From: Chitinophagales bacterium
GTDB lineage: Bacteria; Bacteroidota; Bacteroidia; Chitinophagales; Chitinophagaceae
Direction of reading: 5' to 3'
DNA: 37,901 bases
Assembly: GCA_015655435.1 (NCBI GenBank)
Contig: JAATFC010000262.1
Span: 1 to 37,901, forward strand
In this document: positions 25,396 through 33,576 of the stretch, in pieces
How the letters are laid out: every line of letters starts with the position of its first letter
Position numbering within the stretch: the first letter of the stretch is position 1
Translations under genes and position numbers: made by a program
The notes under the pieces: model-generated
What the model was told of the DNA's origin: nothing
What the model saw: the letters and a program-made list of their open reading frames with translations, nothing else
Database searches by the model: none

Positions 25396-26277
25396 ATGAG
25401 CTACAGAAAAATAGAAAGATTAGTGACTCCTGGCGAATTTCATTTTGTCGGAGACGGTTTTAAAGTGCATAATTTTGTTCCGGGTGATACTGGATTGGAC
25501 CAGAGACGGATGGATCCGTTTGTAATGCTGGACTATAATGCACCAATGGAAGTTAAAGCCAGTGACGGAAAACCAAAAGGCGTTGGCCCTCATCCCCATC
25601 GCGGTTTTGAAACGGTTACGATTGCCTACAAAGGAAACGTTGCGCACCACGACAGTCATGGCGGTGGCGGCGTGATAGGAGAGGGAGATGTTCAGTGGAT
25701 GACAGCGGCGTCTGGCGTTTTGCATAAGGAATATTATTCCGAAGCATTTAATAAGCAAGGTGGTATTTTTCAAATGGTGCAGTTGTGGGTCAATCTACCT
25801 GCAAAGGACAAAATGTCCACACCTAAATACCAAAGTATTGAAAATGCCAATATGCCAAAAGTCACACTCGCAGATGGCAAAAGCTATGTGGAAGTTATAG
25901 CTGGTGAATACGTAGGCAACAAAGGTCCTGCATCGACATTTACGCCGATTCATTTGTTGAATGCAAAGCTGCAAAAAGGTGGTCATGCGGATTTTGATTT
26001 TCCGGAAAACTATACGGTTGCCATCATCGCAATCGACGGAAATGCAACTATAAACGGCGAACAGAAAATCAAAACCAATCAGTTGGCATTATTGGACCGC
26101 AGTGCAACAGACTTTAGCATTTCCGCTGAAGAAAATGCCGTAATTTTAATATTGGCAGGCGAACCAATAGGCGAACCAATCGCAAGCTACGGACCATTTG
26201 TAATGAATACAAAAGACGAAATTATCACGGCCATGAATGATTTCAACGTAGGCAAATTTGGTTTTTTGGAAGACTAA
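25396..26277 (+). CDS. Pirin family protein (first copy)
   Basis: This 293-residue bicupin protein has metal ligands in the N-terminal cupin: H66 and H68 (GPHPHRGFE), then H110 and E112 (GVLHKE). WMTAASG is part of the second cupin motif, and the C-terminal cupin (about 180-290) is degenerate, as in the family. Pirins bind iron; some act as quercetin dioxygenases and others as redox-responsive cofactors, so the activity is open. It is followed after 83 bases by a second, different pirin and preceded by a Crp/Fnr regulator. Confidence 0.93.
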   Translation: MSYRKIERLVTPGEFHFVGDGFKVHNFVPGDTGLDQRRMDPFVMLDYNAPMEVKASDGKPKGVGPHPHRGFETVTIAYKGNVAHHDSHGGGGVIGEGDVQWMTAASGVLHKEYYSEAFNKQGGIFQMVQLWVNLPAKDKMSTPKYQSIENANMPKVTLADGKSYVEVIAGEYVGNKGPASTFTPIHLLNAKLQKGGHADFDFPENYTVAIIAIDGNATINGEQKIKTNQLALLDRSATDFSISAEENAVILILAGEPIGEPIASYGPFVMNTKDEIITAMNDFNVGKFGFLED

Positions 26278-26288
26278 TATATGTGTTG

Positions 26289-26360
26289 AGTTGTAGGTTT
26301 TAAGTTGTGAGTAATCAACCTAAAACCTACAACTTATTACTCAAAACTTACAACTTAAGT
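26289..26360. repeat. Inverted/tandem repeat before the second pirin
   Basis: AGTTGTAGGTTTTA (26289-26302) is inverted at 26321-26334 (TAAAACCTACAACT). Further copies of AAGTTGTGAGTAAT and its near complement (ATTACTCAAAACTTACAACTT) continue to the start codon. It forms a hairpin-capable array of a kind common between genes in Bacteroidota. Confidence 0.65.
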
Positions 26361-27233
26361 ATGTCAAATATTGGATTGATATTGGAAGAAAAAGCAGCAG
26401 ATATTGGAAATTTTCTGGTGGGGAGGCTATTGCCTTTCCGCCAAAAAAGAGCCGTCGGACCATTTGTATTTATTGACCACATGGGGCCGACAGCATTGAA
26501 AGACTATCAGAACATGGATGTGCCGCCACATCCACATATTGGGCTTTCGACATTGACTTATCTGTTTGAAGGTGCAATACGCCACTGCGACAGCATGGGA
26601 AACGACATTGTGATTACACCCGGTGCAGTTAACTGGATGACCGCGGGAAAAGGCGTTGCGCACTCGGAGAGAACGCCCGAATATATGCGTCATACGGAAA
26701 AAGTATTACACGGTTTTCAATTATGGGTGGCATTACCAAAAGACTTGGAAAACGGAGAACCTTCGTTTTCGCATACCAATGCAGAAGATATTCCGAGTTG
26801 GGAAAAGGACGGCGTTTTTTACAAACTGATTGCAGGAAAAGCTGCAGGTCGTGAATCTCCCGTTCCGGTATATAGTAATCTTTTCTTTCTGGAAATACAT
26901 TCCGACTATGCTACTGAAATCAATATCGGAAAAGACTTATACGGAGAAAGTGCGTTGTATGTATTGGACGGAACGGTCAATATTGAAGGCAACGAATATG
27001 GTTCTAAGCAATTAATGATTGCAAAAGAAGCGACGTTGTGTAGTTTCCAAATATCTGCCGGAGCGACTGTTTATCTTTTCGGAGGCGAACCGTTTCCGGA
27101 GGAAAGATTCATCTATTGGAACTTTGTCAATTCTGACAAAACAGTTATCGAAAAAGCAAAAGAAAACTGGAATGAACATCGTTTTCCACTCGTTCCGGGC
27201 GATGACGGATATGTTCCGTTGCCGGGATATTGA
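26361..27233 (+). CDS. Pirin family protein (second copy)
   Basis: This 290-residue bicupin protein has metal ligands H57 and H59 (VPPHPHIGLST), then H101 and E103 (GVAHSE), the same spacing as in human pirin. It differs clearly from the first copy, so this is not a recent duplication. I chose ATG 26361 (MSNIGLILEEKAA); an earlier in-frame ATG at 26307 would translate the repeat array (NQPKTYNLLLKTYNL) and is rejected. The end (DGYVPLPGY) is typical for the group. A terminator follows. Confidence 0.93.
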   Translation: MSNIGLILEEKAADIGNFLVGRLLPFRQKRAVGPFVFIDHMGPTALKDYQNMDVPPHPHIGLSTLTYLFEGAIRHCDSMGNDIVITPGAVNWMTAGKGVAHSERTPEYMRHTEKVLHGFQLWVALPKDLENGEPSFSHTNAEDIPSWEKDGVFYKLIAGKAAGRESPVPVYSNLFFLEIHSDYATEINIGKDLYGESALYVLDGTVNIEGNEYGSKQLMIAKEATLCSFQISAGATVYLFGGEPFPEERFIYWNFVNSDKTVIEKAKENWNEHRFPLVPGDDGYVPLPGY

Positions 27234-28825: not shown

Positions 28826-29169
28826 ATTAAGCTCACAAAAATAAACAAGCAATTTAAAGTAAAAATGTTTACGTACTCGCTCCATGATAGATCTTGGAGG
28901 CAAAACTTTGTCCATAGGAATTTTTCATGAGAATTAAAGTGCTTGACAAAACAAGCATACGGATTAGAAAACATTTCATGGCAACTGATTCTGTAGTTTA
29001 TTACAATCAAAACAATTTTATCCAACGTTGTAATAGCTTTAATTGTATAAACATTAGTTAAGAAGGAAATTTTAAACAAAATACACGTTTTATTTTTCAT
29101 TTATCCGAGAAATCGAATCTTAAAAAAGTATTTTTAAATCATCAAATCCCAATTATATCTTTGTCCGAT
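28826..29169. other. Divergent intergenic region before the Hsp70 operon
   Basis: These 344 AT-rich bases hold the -7 box of the lipoprotein gene (28836-28843, minus strand) and that of the GrpE-like gene (29156-29163, plus strand). A 92-codon frame on the minus strand (28822-29100) overlaps the lipoprotein start as ATGA, but it is rich in Phe, Cys and Asn and resembles nothing, so it is not called. No RNA or repeat is seen. Confidence 0.55.
29156..29163 (+). promoter_or_regulatory. -7 box of the GrpE-like/Hsp70 operon
   Basis: TATCTTTG matches TAnnTTTG and lies six bases before ATG 29170, so the mRNA may start at or next to the start codon. No convincing -33 box or heat-shock operator is seen. 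Confidence 0.55.
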
Positions 29170-29481
29170 ATGAATAATGACACCAAACTGCTCAACCAGC
29201 TTTTCGAACTGAAAAGCAAAATCGACCAGGAAAACTTGTCCGACAAGTTTGAACGCAACTTCCAACGGCTGTTTGCCTTGTTGGAAGAAGAAGGTTTGTT
29301 TTTCAAAGACCCTATTGGCGAACTATACAACGATGCCAGAACGGACGTGGAGGTGAGTATTGTGGGAAAAGAATCTTCTCAGATGCGTATCACGAAAGTC
29401 ATCAAACCTATCATTTACAAAAAAGAAGGAGGCAATGCACTGCTTTTGCAAAAAGGCGTTGTCATTATCGAAAAAGCATAA
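29170..29481 (+). CDS. Short GrpE-like nucleotide exchange factor candidate
   Basis: This 103-residue protein has a helical N-terminal half (LFELKSKIDQENLSDKFERN, about 12-31) and a compact beta-rich C-terminal half. The order there, DPIGELYNDARTDVEVSI, then ITKVIKPIIY and LLLQKGVVIIEKA, matches the end of the GrpE beta-wing domain that contacts the Hsp70 ATPase. It is about half the length of normal GrpE and lacks the long coiled coil. The Hsp70 gene starts six bases after its stop, so the two are almost certainly co-expressed. I infer that it releases ADP from that Hsp70. The assignment rests on pattern and context, not a firm family match. Confidence 0.6.
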   Translation: MNNDTKLLNQLFELKSKIDQENLSDKFERNFQRLFALLEEEGLFFKDPIGELYNDARTDVEVSIVGKESSQMRITKVIKPIIYKKEGGNALLLQKGVVIIEKA

Positions 29482-29487
29482 GGAAAC

Positions 29488-32031
29488 ATGGAAACAGTCA
29501 ACTACGGTATAGACCTTGGCACAACCAACTCGTTAATCGCGAAATTTGAAAATGGCCGCGTGACCATTTTCAAAAACCCTATTGGACAAAAAGAGACGCT
29601 GGCTTCGGTGGTGGCGTTTCGCAAAGACCGCATATTGGTGGGCGACAAGGCACGCGAATATATTGCCAAAGACCCAACTAATGTGTTTGGTAGTTTCAAG
29701 CGCAAAATGGGAACAGACAGCCAATACTATGTGGTCAATATGGACGAAAACGTTACGCCGATTACGTTATCGTCTTATGTGCTGAAAGAACTGAAAACTT
29801 TTTTGCGCAACGGAGAAAAGCCTCAGGCAGCGGTAATCACCATTCCTGCTTCGTTTGATACAATGCAGAGTAATGCTACGCAGAAAGCAGGTATTGAGGC
29901 TGGTTTCAAAAATGTTTTTTTGTTGCAGGAGCCTATTGCGGCGAGTTTGGCGTATTTCAACCATGCTGCCCAACAAGACAAGTCAGGATATTGGTTAGTG
30001 TACGATTTGGGTGGTGGCACGTTTGACGTGGCGTTGATTCGTATAGAAGATACGGACATGCAGATTGTCGACCATGAAGGAAACAATTTCTTGGGTGGCG
30101 TTGATTTTGACACGGCTATTGTTGAGGAAATATTGATTCCCGAAATCGTGCAAAAAACAGGGCTAGAAAATCTAAAAGAAGAAATTTCCTCTTCCGGTAC
30201 GCATGAGAAACTATACTATATTCTTTTACATAAAGCAGAAGAGGCCAAGAAGGATTTGTCCTATCAGGAAAGTACGGAAATAGAATTTACTTTGGATTTG
30301 GCCAAGGGAGATTCGGAAGATATAGTGTTGACTATAACACGCGAAAGATTTAACCAGATTATCTCTGAAAAAATTAACCTCACCATCCAGATGGTGCAGC
30401 AGATATTGGAACGCAATAGTCTGAGTTCTTCGCAGATACAGCAAATAATTCTTGTCGGAGGCAGCACTTATATTCCCTATGTGCGTGAGCGGTTGGTGGA
30501 TTCGTTGGCGATAACTGTCAATACGGATGCAGACCCGACATCTGCCATTGCGGAAGGCGCAGCATACTATGCGGGAAACAAATACTATCAACCTGTTGCA
30601 GAAGAAGATACTGAATTGTCCGAACTCACTATTGATTCCTTGTTAGACGATTTTTCGGAAAATACCACCAACATAGATTTGGATATACAGTTGTCGTACA
30701 TGAAGGCGACACAGGAAGAGGAAGAAATGCTTTTGGTAAAAGTGCAAGGCAATACGGACGGATATCAATATCGGTTGATAAGGGACGATGGTGGTTTTGA
30801 CACGGGCTTCATGCCATTAAAAACGAAATTCACGGAGTTTCTCCCGTTGATTGCCCATGTACAAAATCTGTTTACTTTTCGCGTGTACACAGCCACAGGC
30901 GAGGAGCTTGCAGGACTAATGCAAAAACTGGCTATTGCCCAAGGTCAATACGTCATACAAGGACAACCACTGCCAAAAGACATTTGTATAGAAGTCGACG
31001 ACAAGGAAAACAATACGACTAAACTTGAATTGATATTTGAACGAAACAGTTTGCTTCCGCAAAAGAAAACCTTGTATCGCGAGGTTTCTCGGACTATAAA
31101 AGCGGGTTCGGATGAAAGGCTTATTATCAATATATTGGAAGGCGACAGATTTGTCCGTCCGGTTTCCTGTCTAGTAATTGCCTGTATTGAGATTTCAGGA
31201 AAAGATATTTCATCCGACTTGCTGAAAGGTTCGGACATTGAGGTTTCGTTGATGATTGACGAAAGTCGCCAGATTCATTGTTCGGTCTATACGGTAATGA
31301 CAGAACAGGAATTTAAACACGTATTTTCCGTTTCGGAAAAACAGGTAAGTGTTCCGAGATTGAAAGACCAGTTCATGGAACTCGAACAGGAACTTCGTTC
31401 CGCATTGAAGATGATGAGTTTCAGTGATGAAAACCAATGGCAGACTGCATGCGAGCAACTATTGGACGAACTAGAATCCCACAAAAAAGATTTGCTTAAG
31501 CTGAAAGAAAACGACAAGTCCGATAAGAAATTTATCATTGCGGAAGCCGTGCAGCGCATTGCGGGAAGTTTTGACAAACTAGGTGGTGCCGAAAGACTGA
31601 CACAGATGCAAACGGAATATTTCGAAGCACGCGATTTTGTGGAACAGCATTTGCCCTCGGTTTATTTTGAAAAGGAAAACCTGACCAACAAATTCAAGAA
31701 AATAGTCCAGTCGGAAGAGCAGATTTTGCGTACTAGAAATGCATCCATATTGACGAATGCTATTACTCGACTCAATAAACTTGGATGGGAAGTATTATAT
31801 AACGATTTGGGTTATCTGATTGGGCGCTACGGTGAGTTCAAGTCATGGGATCCATCCAGATATACTAACTATACGGCTGTCGAAAAACTGTTCCAACTTG
31901 CAGACAAGGCATTGGAAAACGAACAGTACAATACATTTCGCCAAAACGTCTACAGTATTACGCATTTGACAAAAGGAAGCACAGAATTCAAACCCAAAAA
32001 CGAAGATTTCAAAGGAACAGGAATTGGTTAA
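29488..32031 (+). CDS. Divergent Hsp70 (DnaK-like) chaperone, extended form
   Basis: The 847-residue protein has an intact Hsp70 ATPase domain: phosphate-1 (YGIDLGTTNSLI, 6-17), AVITIPASFDTMQSNATQKA (115-134), phosphate-2 (LVYDLGGGTFD, 170-180) and adenosine motif (ILVGGSTYIP, 321-330). It is not the housekeeping DnaK. Residues about 366-480 form an extra region between ATPase and substrate domains that looks beta-rich and immunoglobulin-like. A substrate-type beta domain (about 490-615) and a long helical C-terminus (about 620-830) follow, with no DnaK-type EEVD or acidic tail. The upstream gene resembles GrpE and the downstream gene encodes a membrane protein, so this is a dedicated chaperone system of unknown client. 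Confidence 0.88.
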   Translation: METVNYGIDLGTTNSLIAKFENGRVTIFKNPIGQKETLASVVAFRKDRILVGDKAREYIAKDPTNVFGSFKRKMGTDSQYYVVNMDENVTPITLSSYVLKELKTFLRNGEKPQAAVITIPASFDTMQSNATQKAGIEAGFKNVFLLQEPIAASLAYFNHAAQQDKSGYWLVYDLGGGTFDVALIRIEDTDMQIVDHEGNNFLGGVDFDTAIVEEILIPEIVQKTGLENLKEEISSSGTHEKLYYILLHKAEEAKKDLSYQESTEIEFTLDLAKGDSEDIVLTITRERFNQIISEKINLTIQMVQQILERNSLSSSQIQQIILVGGSTYIPYVRERLVDSLAITVNTDADPTSAIAEGAAYYAGNKYYQPVAEEDTELSELTIDSLLDDFSENTTNIDLDIQLSYMKATQEEEEMLLVKVQGNTDGYQYRLIRDDGGFDTGFMPLKTKFTEFLPLIAHVQNLFTFRVYTATGEELAGLMQKLAIAQGQYVIQGQPLPKDICIEVDDKENNTTKLELIFERNSLLPQKKTLYREVSRTIKAGSDERLIINILEGDRFVRPVSCLVIACIEISGKDISSDLLKGSDIEVSLMIDESRQIHCSVYTVMTEQEFKHVFSVSEKQVSVPRLKDQFMELEQELRSALKMMSFSDENQWQTACEQLLDELESHKKDLLKLKENDKSDKKFIIAEAVQRIAGSFDKLGGAERLTQMQTEYFEARDFVEQHLPSVYFEKENLTNKFKKIVQSEEQILRTRNASILTNAITRLNKLGWEVLYNDLGYLIGRYGEFKSWDPSRYTNYTAVEKLFQLADKALENEQYNTFRQNVYSITHLTKGSTEFKPKNEDFKGTGIG

Positions 32032-32055
32032 TTCCTTTGTTTTTTATCCATTTTT

Positions 32056-33576
32056 ATGCACTATATATCTCCTGTTCGATTTTTCGAATCTCTACAGATT
32101 TCAGATGATGATATTTCTGATCCCAAAAAGCTAAAGAAAATCGTCAACCTGGAATTTTTGTCTTCCGAAACGGGAATCGTTTCGATTGACGGATTTGACT
32201 ATAATAAGCAAGAGATGCTGGAACTTGTGTCGGATGATGATTTTGCACAGAAATGGCAATACCATAAAAAGATATGGGCAAATCGACCTTTGCTGGATGT
32301 ATTGGAACGCGAATCGGTTGATATAAAACAGTTGCGTGAAGTATTGGCAGAAAAGGAAAATGAAGGTTTTGTTCGTTTTGTTTCTCCCTATTTTGCCACA
32401 CCGTTCAACAATATTATGAAGCTTTTGTTGAGCAACAACTATGTGCGCGACATCTACCTTTGGATGCAATGCAGAGCTTATATTACTGTGGAAAACGAGG
32501 AAGTTGCGTATGATGGTTTGCGACGTTATTTTGACAATGCTCTGTATTTTTTCCGCAATATCAACGATACCAATTTTCACGATAAATTGGACGAAATAAG
32601 AATCTGGGAGCCCATCGACTGGAGTACCGTATTGAACAATCTTCCCGATTATCTGTACCAATATAGGGACGAAATCCCGCGTAGCCTTACCCATGTTTTG
32701 GTAGTCATCCAATATGCTGAACGCGAACTCTGTTACCAGATAAGTCTTTGGTTGGTAAAGCTGCAAATCGCGTCCGACAATCTGGCGAAAACTATCAGTA
32801 GCAATCATTTGGCATTTAAACAAAACAGGAAAAAATCGAGAAGTTTTTCAATAAAAGGTGGCGGTTGGTATTTCCTGATTTTTGTCGTGGTAAAAATCAT
32901 TATTGGCATGTCGACATGCAACAATAGTTCCAACGACTTCAAAGACAATACTTATTACCAGCAGAGTATTCCTTTGGAAGTGCAGAGAAAAATTGATTCT
33001 TTAAAGAATGCACGTCAGGACAGTAGTCTTAGCTATGACGAGGTTACTTATCACCAATTACCTTCTTTTTACTATTTCACACACCAAAAAGACACTATCA
33101 ATACCGAAAAAGGATTGGACAAAAAACAACTCGACCGTGTGCCTATTTATTTTTCGGTTTACGAAGGAAGAGATACAGCTTTAACGCCGTTCTATTTGTA
33201 TAACAATACCGGAGAAATTTTATATCTACTTTATTTCCAAGGAGAAAACGTTTTCTCTGTCAGGTTTTCCGACAAGACATATCTATATTGGAGACCTAAC
33301 GGCAAAAAAGCAATTGACTTTGCATTGAATACGTTTGACAATTTGAAACCGTTCAATTTTTGGATAGATGGCAGTCAGTCGGTTTCACTTTCGCTCCATC
33401 AGCCAATACAATTTAAAGAGATTGATGACCAAAATCCTTACCTTATTCCGGATTCCGTCAAGACCGTAAAAGATGCTGTGCTTACAATTTCCATCAGAAA
33501 GGTTTTGGACAAATACTATGTTGCAACGGAAGGAGAGAAAGTCTATTATTACAAAGAAAAGTTTGTGGTGAAATAG
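32056..33576 (+). CDS. Single-pass membrane partner of the Hsp70 locus
   Basis: This 506-residue protein lies 24 bases after the Hsp70 gene. Residues 1-260 are soluble and helical, beginning ISPVRFFESLQISDDDI. A stretch at about 30-85 (GIVSIDGFDYNKQEMLELVS, then WANRPLLDVLE) looks like a small repeated domain. A basic run (KQNRKKSRS) precedes one membrane segment (WYFLIFVVVKIIIGMST, about 271-287), and by the positive-inside rule the first part is cytosolic. The remaining 215 residues should be periplasmic and beta-rich. There is no HPD J-domain motif. I infer an anchor or receptor that brings the Hsp70 to the membrane. I do not recognise the family. Confidence 0.75.
   Translation: MHYISPVRFFESLQISDDDISDPKKLKKIVNLEFLSSETGIVSIDGFDYNKQEMLELVSDDDFAQKWQYHKKIWANRPLLDVLERESVDIKQLREVLAEKENEGFVRFVSPYFATPFNNIMKLLLSNNYVRDIYLWMQCRAYITVENEEVAYDGLRRYFDNALYFFRNINDTNFHDKLDEIRIWEPIDWSTVLNNLPDYLYQYRDEIPRSLTHVLVVIQYAERELCYQISLWLVKLQIASDNLAKTISSNHLAFKQNRKKSRSFSIKGGGWYFLIFVVVKIIIGMSTCNNSSNDFKDNTYYQQSIPLEVQRKIDSLKNARQDSSLSYDEVTYHQLPSFYYFTHQKDTINTEKGLDKKQLDRVPIYFSVYEGRDTALTPFYLYNNTGEILYLLYFQGENVFSVRFSDKTYLYWRPNGKKAIDFALNTFDNLKPFNFWIDGSQSVSLSLHQPIQFKEIDDQNPYLIPDSVKTVKDAVLTISIRKVLDKYYVATEGEKVYYYKEKFVVK

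Follow-up and report, generated by a model that had tools for sequence, protein, structure and literature searches.

Specialised Hsp70 chaperones encoded close to partner genes of their own are known from E. coli, where HscC is accompanied by DjlB and DjlC (PMC8215388; locus L197 in this study). The GrpE signature is missing from HscC, for which an exchange factor is presumed to be unnecessary; the signature loop is deleted in both HscA and HscC (PMC8215388). DjlB and DjlC have a recognisable J-domain, although the motif in the sequences from E. coli reads HPE and not HPD. In Myxococcus xanthus, a second Hsp70, MxDnaK2, is encoded downstream of its own GrpE gene, MXAN_6672, in a bicistronic arrangement (PMC11019930). 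HSP70 and GrpE neighbourhoods are also found in the GAP1-N2 GTPase conflict systems, in which a partner is fused to DnaJ or TPR (PMC7159879). In mitochondria, Pam16 and Pam18 drive an Hsp70 at the inner membrane, and Pam16 is J-like (PMC11349236, PMC5773037). Pam16 is not known to have an HPD motif.

Here we describe a three-gene module of Bacteroidota, encoding a short GrpE-like protein (mini-GrpE), an Hsp70 and a membrane protein (P3), which shares features with each of these systems. As with HscC, a specialised Hsp70 has its own partner genes nearby, and both Hsp70s lack the segment corresponding to DnaK residues 76-101; unlike the module Hsp70, HscC has kept R167, N170, T173, E217 and a plain linker. 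In comparison with HscC and its partners the situation is reversed, a GrpE-like factor being present in the module and the docking site for J-domains being lost. The module shares the pairing of a second Hsp70 with its own GrpE-type gene with MxDnaK2; the latter, however, is a DnaK paralogue, its GrpE homologue is about 34% similar to E. coli GrpE, and no P3-type third gene is described in the relevant sections of that paper (PMC11019930). The GAP1-N2 systems differ in being built around a GTPase and proteins with FNIII repeats, and they come chiefly from Actinobacteria and Firmicutes (PMC7159879); among the neighbours of the module no TRAFAC GTPase was recognised, although no dedicated profile search was done. 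Like DnaK-DnaJ-GrpE, the module combines an Hsp70 ATPase core with a factor of predicted GrpE fold, but it is distinguished by its separate clade, a linker insertion, a long C-terminal part, the absence of the long GrpE helix and the absence of an HPD protein. The likeness to Pam16/Pam18, an Hsp70 driven at the inner membrane, is by analogy only.

The window (the whole stretch of DNA that was analysed, 37,901 bp) is contig C197 of a Bacteroidota genome of 3.23 Mb in 387 contigs (82% complete); Taibaiella and Edaphocola are the closest of its annotated relatives. Elsewhere, this genome has housekeeping grpE and dnaJ genes on contig C91 and a fragment of dnaK on C217. The module occupies 29170-33576 on the + strand, and in the list of open reading frames its genes are separated by exactly 6 and 24 bases. 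Its features, in window positions, are as follows.

29156-29163, + strand: weak promoter-like sequence TATCTTTG, fitting TAnnTTTG, 14 nt ahead of the start codon
29170-29481, + strand: mini-GrpE gene, 103 aa, with the ATG start picked from the family alignment
29488-32031, + strand: Hsp70 gene, 847 aa (open reading frame and profile matches)
29500-30576, + strand: Hsp70 nucleotide-binding domain, residues 5-363, catalytic residues all kept
29917-29937, + strand: codons 144-150, the equivalents of DnaK R167/N170/T173, here F/Q/I (alignment, controls)
30289-30321, + strand: GrpE exchange loop, corresponding to DnaK 285-295 and of unchanged length (alignment)
30601-30957, + strand: inserted domain of about 120 residues replacing the interdomain linker (alignment)
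30967-31347, + strand: SBD-beta-like region ('QPLPKDICIEVDD...ILEGDR...GSDIEVSL'; alignment and hhalign)
31348-32028, + strand: helical region at the C-terminus, which exceeds the DnaK lid in length and has FKGTGIG at its end (alignment)
32056-33576, + strand: P3 gene, membrane protein of 506 aa (open reading frame)
32056-32310, + strand: P3 N-terminal domain, residues 1-85, 'Y-x-SP-xx-L ... KKxLxAExEL', without HPD, candidate degenerate J-like domain
32314-32856, + strand: P3 helical-repeat region, residues 87-267, pLDDT mostly >90
32869-32919, + strand: P3 transmembrane (TM) segment, residues 272-288 (TM prediction)
32920-33573, + strand: P3 C-terminal region, probably extracytoplasmic, optional, variable and missing in several relatives

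An alternative TTG start at 29161 would give a mini-GrpE of 106 aa; the chosen ATG aligns with the starts of the family. The -7 promoter box of Bacteroidota has the consensus TAnnTTTG. A common promoter of this type is not claimed for the module, as the motif lies at most 120 nt away in just 25 of 77 loci. Two neighbouring pirin-like genes (window 25396-27233), called by eye from their PHPHRG and PHPHIG motifs, have no relation to the module.

A search with P3 detected this protein in 9 of 149 relatives, the source genome counted, and mini-GrpE and Hsp70 lay beside it in all eight others. As a genome-wide pattern query P3 gave no match, being too variable. An independent search with the C-terminal half of the Hsp70 alone, against one genome per species (84,980 species), succeeded; it yielded 80 loci, with Bacteroidota organism names throughout except for one uncultured bacterium. 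Once duplicates had been removed, 84 loci were kept. Mini-GrpE precedes Hsp70 in 83 of these, at a median distance of 6 bp; the gap is no more than 50 bp in 74 loci, and the genes overlap in 12. The exception (L068) is a short contig on which the Hsp70 frame is split. A P3 gene is present in 79 of the 83 loci, within 200 bp in 73 of them. Open frames, profile matches and synteny kept in 83 loci show that the module is not a chance pattern. A preliminary description, made from sequence alone, had noted three genes in one direction, 6 and 24 bases apart, and had named rare adjacency in other genomes as a ground for refutation. The arrangement in the window was confirmed, and the genes adjoin one another almost always; across the loci, however, P3 is on the same strand in 31 and on the opposite strand in 48. 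Among 395 sampled Bacteroidota genomes mini-GrpE was found in 7, each time beside the module Hsp70.

In Flavobacteriaceae the position of the module is stable, between folC and murF/gldJ. A conserved fourth gene was considered and rejected: folC, murF, gldJ and exbB/exbD (names called by eye from the sequences) are neighbours only in 14 related Flavobacteriaceae loci. A CbpA-like J-protein gene is divergently adjacent in L024 and L025 (5422-6321) and in L043 (5429-6313), limited to two Edaphocola species and one Taibaiella strain. At least two P3 genes occur in 13 loci, where a single Hsp70 sometimes has two or three P3 copies; tandem P3 duplicates beside a single Hsp70 are seen in L015 (7174-9649) and in the Chitinophaga loci L050, L051, L055, L063 and L089. 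Two loci carry a P3 homologue without mini-GrpE and Hsp70, at 6556-8046 of L184 (genome G364) and 7318-8652 of L183 (genome G150). In L184 it adjoins folC, with gldJ and murF on the far side, where related Flavobacteriaceae have the whole module; this arrangement suggests loss of the mini-GrpE and Hsp70 genes.

The window Hsp70 matched PF00012 over residues 7-363 (E 2.7e-68). Against the DnaK model TIGR02350 it scored 234 bits (cut-off 822), and against the HscA model 226 bits (cut-off 708). In a tree of the ATPase domain, the module family together with its distant relatives was split from DnaK, HscA and HscC by a branch with 100/99 support, and the module family itself was separated at 100/100. 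HscC and L180 have long branches and their exact places are unsure; the split of the module family is unaffected. The protein belongs to the Hsp70 superfamily by its ATPase domain and a moderate SBD-beta match, and it is not of the DnaK type, HscA or HscC. More GrpE genes of non-housekeeping type were seen in the same order near unusual Hsp70s (G089:C238 and G094:C181, one frame being 1278 aa long); in the tree, the Hsp70s of G089 are on the same side as DnaK.

Individual residues were compared by alignment with E. coli DnaK, HscA and HscC, and counted over 55 members of the family. The equivalents of D8, G10, T11, T12, N13, K70, R71, E171, D194, T199 and D201 were invariant (55/55). The E267 equivalent was found in 55/55 members, and 50/55 carry arginine or lysine where DnaK has K55, so the lower cleft salt bridge, which slows ADP release, is kept; the upper one has gone. 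Unlike HscA and HscC, the window Hsp70 has retained the exchange loop around DnaK 284-295.

The positions that receive the J-domain are a different matter. In DnaK, R167 and Q378 are bonded by the aspartate of the HPD motif and L391 by its histidine; E217 is one of several residues that position the J-domain (PMC8215388). The module Hsp70 lineage has lost the docking residues: R167 was found in 0 of 55 members, N170 was replaced by Q in 53, T173 by I or V in all 55 and E217 by K or R in 46. The DnaK linker VLLLD is displaced by the extra domain of about 120 residues, for which a search of PDB sequences gave no convincing relative. After this insertion an SBD-beta match continues in register; the hhalign probability was 50%, against up to 0.7% for shuffled columns, and we regard the match as moderate.

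These losses bear on the simplest alternative, that the protein is an ordinary specialised Hsp70 borrowing the housekeeping J-proteins DnaJ and CbpA. In its favour, housekeeping J-proteins are encoded in the source genome and a CbpA gene is divergently adjacent to the module in three species. Against it, R167, N170, T173, E217, L391 and D393 were unchanged in 23 of 23 controls (20 DnaK- or HscA-type Hsp70s from relatives of the source genome, with E. coli DnaK, HscA and HscC) and are replaced in the module family. We consider this explanation very improbable.

The first protein of the module is predicted to be a shortened GrpE-fold protein. Its AlphaFold2 model (54 sequences; pLDDT 93, pTM 0.82) consists of a two-helix hairpin (residues 6-43 in the 106-aa numbering) and a beta-wing domain of six strands. 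In a Foldseek search of the PDB the 12 best matches were all GrpE or GrpEL1, with weak E-values (0.01-0.5). In VIA-align six GrpE entries reached Z 8.1-9.4, with 95-99 of the 106 residues aligned; no entry of another fold exceeded 4.3. The alignment covers solely GrpE residues about 84-195, which hold the hairpin and the beta-wing; the long N-terminal paired helix of GrpE is absent. Direct sequence tests of homology to GrpE were weak: PF01025 did not match the window protein at E up to 1 and did not appear in the 25 families listed for its 54 relatives, and the NCBIfam GrpE model NF010745 gave 12.6 bits (cut-off 184). This gap is bridged by relatives on plasmids, which link both sides in hhalign; the window family matched the plasmid and distant mini-GrpEs at 93-95%, and those matched GrpE at 69-84%. 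Nucleotide exchange by the protein is inferred.

In the model of P3, residues 1-265 (pLDDT mostly >90) comprise a small N-terminal domain of alpha/beta type, followed by a helical repeat; the part beyond the TM segment is beta-rich and of lower confidence. A TM segment was predicted in 74 of 77 P3 proteins, nearly always at a similar place. Because several P3 proteins end right after it, the conserved part is likely, by inference, to be cytoplasmic and the outer part optional. No fold is claimed for P3: the only matches from Foldseek and VIA were to 14-3-3, ARM, TPR and designed-repeat structures, with scores close to chance, and the structure search barely covered the N-terminal domain. Nor does the sequence support a true J-domain protein. 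No P3 was matched in a J-domain profile search, hhalign of P3 against J-domains gave no significant match, and none of the aligned N-terminal domains has an HPD motif. Here P3 is not classed among the J-domain proteins; it is taken as a possible degenerate J-like protein, on evidence that is only suggestive. The preliminary description had recognised a GrpE-like beta-wing pattern in the 103-residue protein, a divergent Hsp70, a single-pass membrane protein and the lack of a J-domain gene, with structure prediction as a check on the first. All four held; the GrpE-like protein passed its structural check, the single TM segment was placed at residues 272-288, and a J-domain gene adjoins the module only in the three loci noted above. 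The loss of the conserved docking residues and linker had not been noticed. It is this loss that makes the absence of a J gene meaningful. P3 may itself fill the place of the J-protein.

Alternatively, P3 could be a dedicated client, with Hsp70 and mini-GrpE serving the folding or insertion of P3 alone. The tight genetic linkage and the single Hsp70 beside two or three P3 copies in some loci are compatible with this. However, P3 persists without chaperone genes in G364 and G150, its most conserved part is the probably cytoplasmic one, and in distant systems a J-like protein occupies its place. We therefore consider a client role unlikely.

Distant Hsp70s, with frames of 843-860 aa, were found in six genomes of the 395-genome sample. 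Their clusters (L177-L182) encode a protein with an NPFxILG motif. Most of them also have a GrpE-like gene, whose product itself bears a TM segment in L177, L178 and L182, and several add a TerB-like protein and a fusion of protein kinase and AAA. These clusters may represent a separate stress-response system. One further locus, L185, has P3, mini-GrpE, Hsp70, a TerB-like protein and a small membrane protein in a row, and bridges the module type and the distant type. In the NPFxILG proteins helix I is similar to that of J-domains, and HPD is absent; a search of PDB sequences gave no convincing relative. With the N-termini of P3 they matched in hhalign at 54-72% in one direction and 2-8% in reverse.

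Relatives were also found on plasmids of Proteobacteria. In Pseudomonas, Sinorhizobium and Aminobacter the order is a large protein, a protein of about 118 aa and Hsp70; in Shewanella, Polaromonas and Vibrio it is a protein of 114-123 aa, Hsp70, an AAA protein and a J-like protein, with a gene for a peptidoglycan-binding domain between the last two in Shewanella. No TM segment was found in the Pseudomonas plasmid relative. The Shewanella cluster (L194) lies downstream of Tn7-like transposition genes, the Polaromonas cluster (L198) beside zorA, and the Sinorhizobium cluster (L200) near restriction and toxin-antitoxin genes. In the plasmid records examined, the genes are labelled merely 'Hsp70 family protein' and 'hypothetical protein'. 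The viral contigs and phage records searched contained no relative of the module.

Such surroundings favour the main rival explanation, a signalling or defence module, in which the Hsp70-like ATPase and GrpE-like factor would be an NTP-driven switch or assembly that senses perturbation and acts via P3, not in folding. Distant relatives stand beside a kinase-AAA fusion, TerB-like proteins and small membrane proteins, or an AAA ATPase (L194, L198, L199); the plasmid copies have the mobile-element and defence neighbours just listed; pairs of Hsp70 and GrpE have been described in conflict systems (PMC7159879); and the distribution is patchy (7 of 395 genomes). On the other hand, no effector domain was recognised in the window version, PADLOC hits for the three proteins were at chance level only, the stable Flavobacteriaceae locus is unlike a defence island, and an SBD-beta-like region is retained. 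This explanation remains possible.

On balance we favour, with some reserve, a dedicated machine of Hsp70 and exchange factor that acts on the cytoplasmic side of the inner membrane and probably does without canonical J-proteins. In such a machine, mini-GrpE would open the Hsp70 cleft and release ADP as GrpE does. P3 would stand in for the J-protein: it would bring the Hsp70 to the membrane and trigger it there by a contact in which no HPD motif takes part, and one or a few membrane-linked clients would be remodelled. The exchange step, the tethering and the client are all inferred. The machine is supported by the GrpE-like fold, the hhalign chain, the synteny, the retained ATPase and exchange loop, the loss of J-docking and the TM segment of P3. 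It is further supported by the recurrence of a membrane link by other means, the TM segment of the distant GrpE-like proteins. In distant relatives, moreover, the third position is taken by the J-like NPFxILG proteins, which match P3 in one hhalign direction.

Several observations speak against the machine. No interaction or activity has been shown, the P3 N-terminus has no significant J-domain match, and P3 is retained alone in two genomes. P3 is on the opposite strand in the majority of loci (48/79), the reverse match between J-like proteins and P3 is weak, and the helical part of P3 has generic repeat matches only. The Pseudomonas plasmid relative lacks a TM segment, and the SBD-beta match is only moderate. 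The self-contained, membrane-linked Hsp70 system apart from DnaK/DnaJ/GrpE that had been proposed in the preliminary description is supported, while exchange-factor activity, tethering and complex formation are still inferred. A bolder reading would be a fourth prokaryotic Hsp70 lineage, in Bacteroidota and Proteobacteria, which has lost canonical J-docking and is driven by a membrane-bound partner without HPD and a private minimal exchange factor, its cycle needing no canonical J-domain protein; we lean slightly against it at present.

The Hsp70 and the GrpE fold are known kinds. We found no paper on the module family, on this combination of parts or on the loss of J-docking in the literature searched, which left most subscription journals out of scope. 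If the proposed machine is real, an Hsp70 with ATPase and exchange features retained, yet without the residues that meet the HPD motif or the linker that carries the J-domain and substrate signal, would show which parts of the chaperone cycle are indispensable, and the family would provide an exchange factor reduced to about 100 residues.
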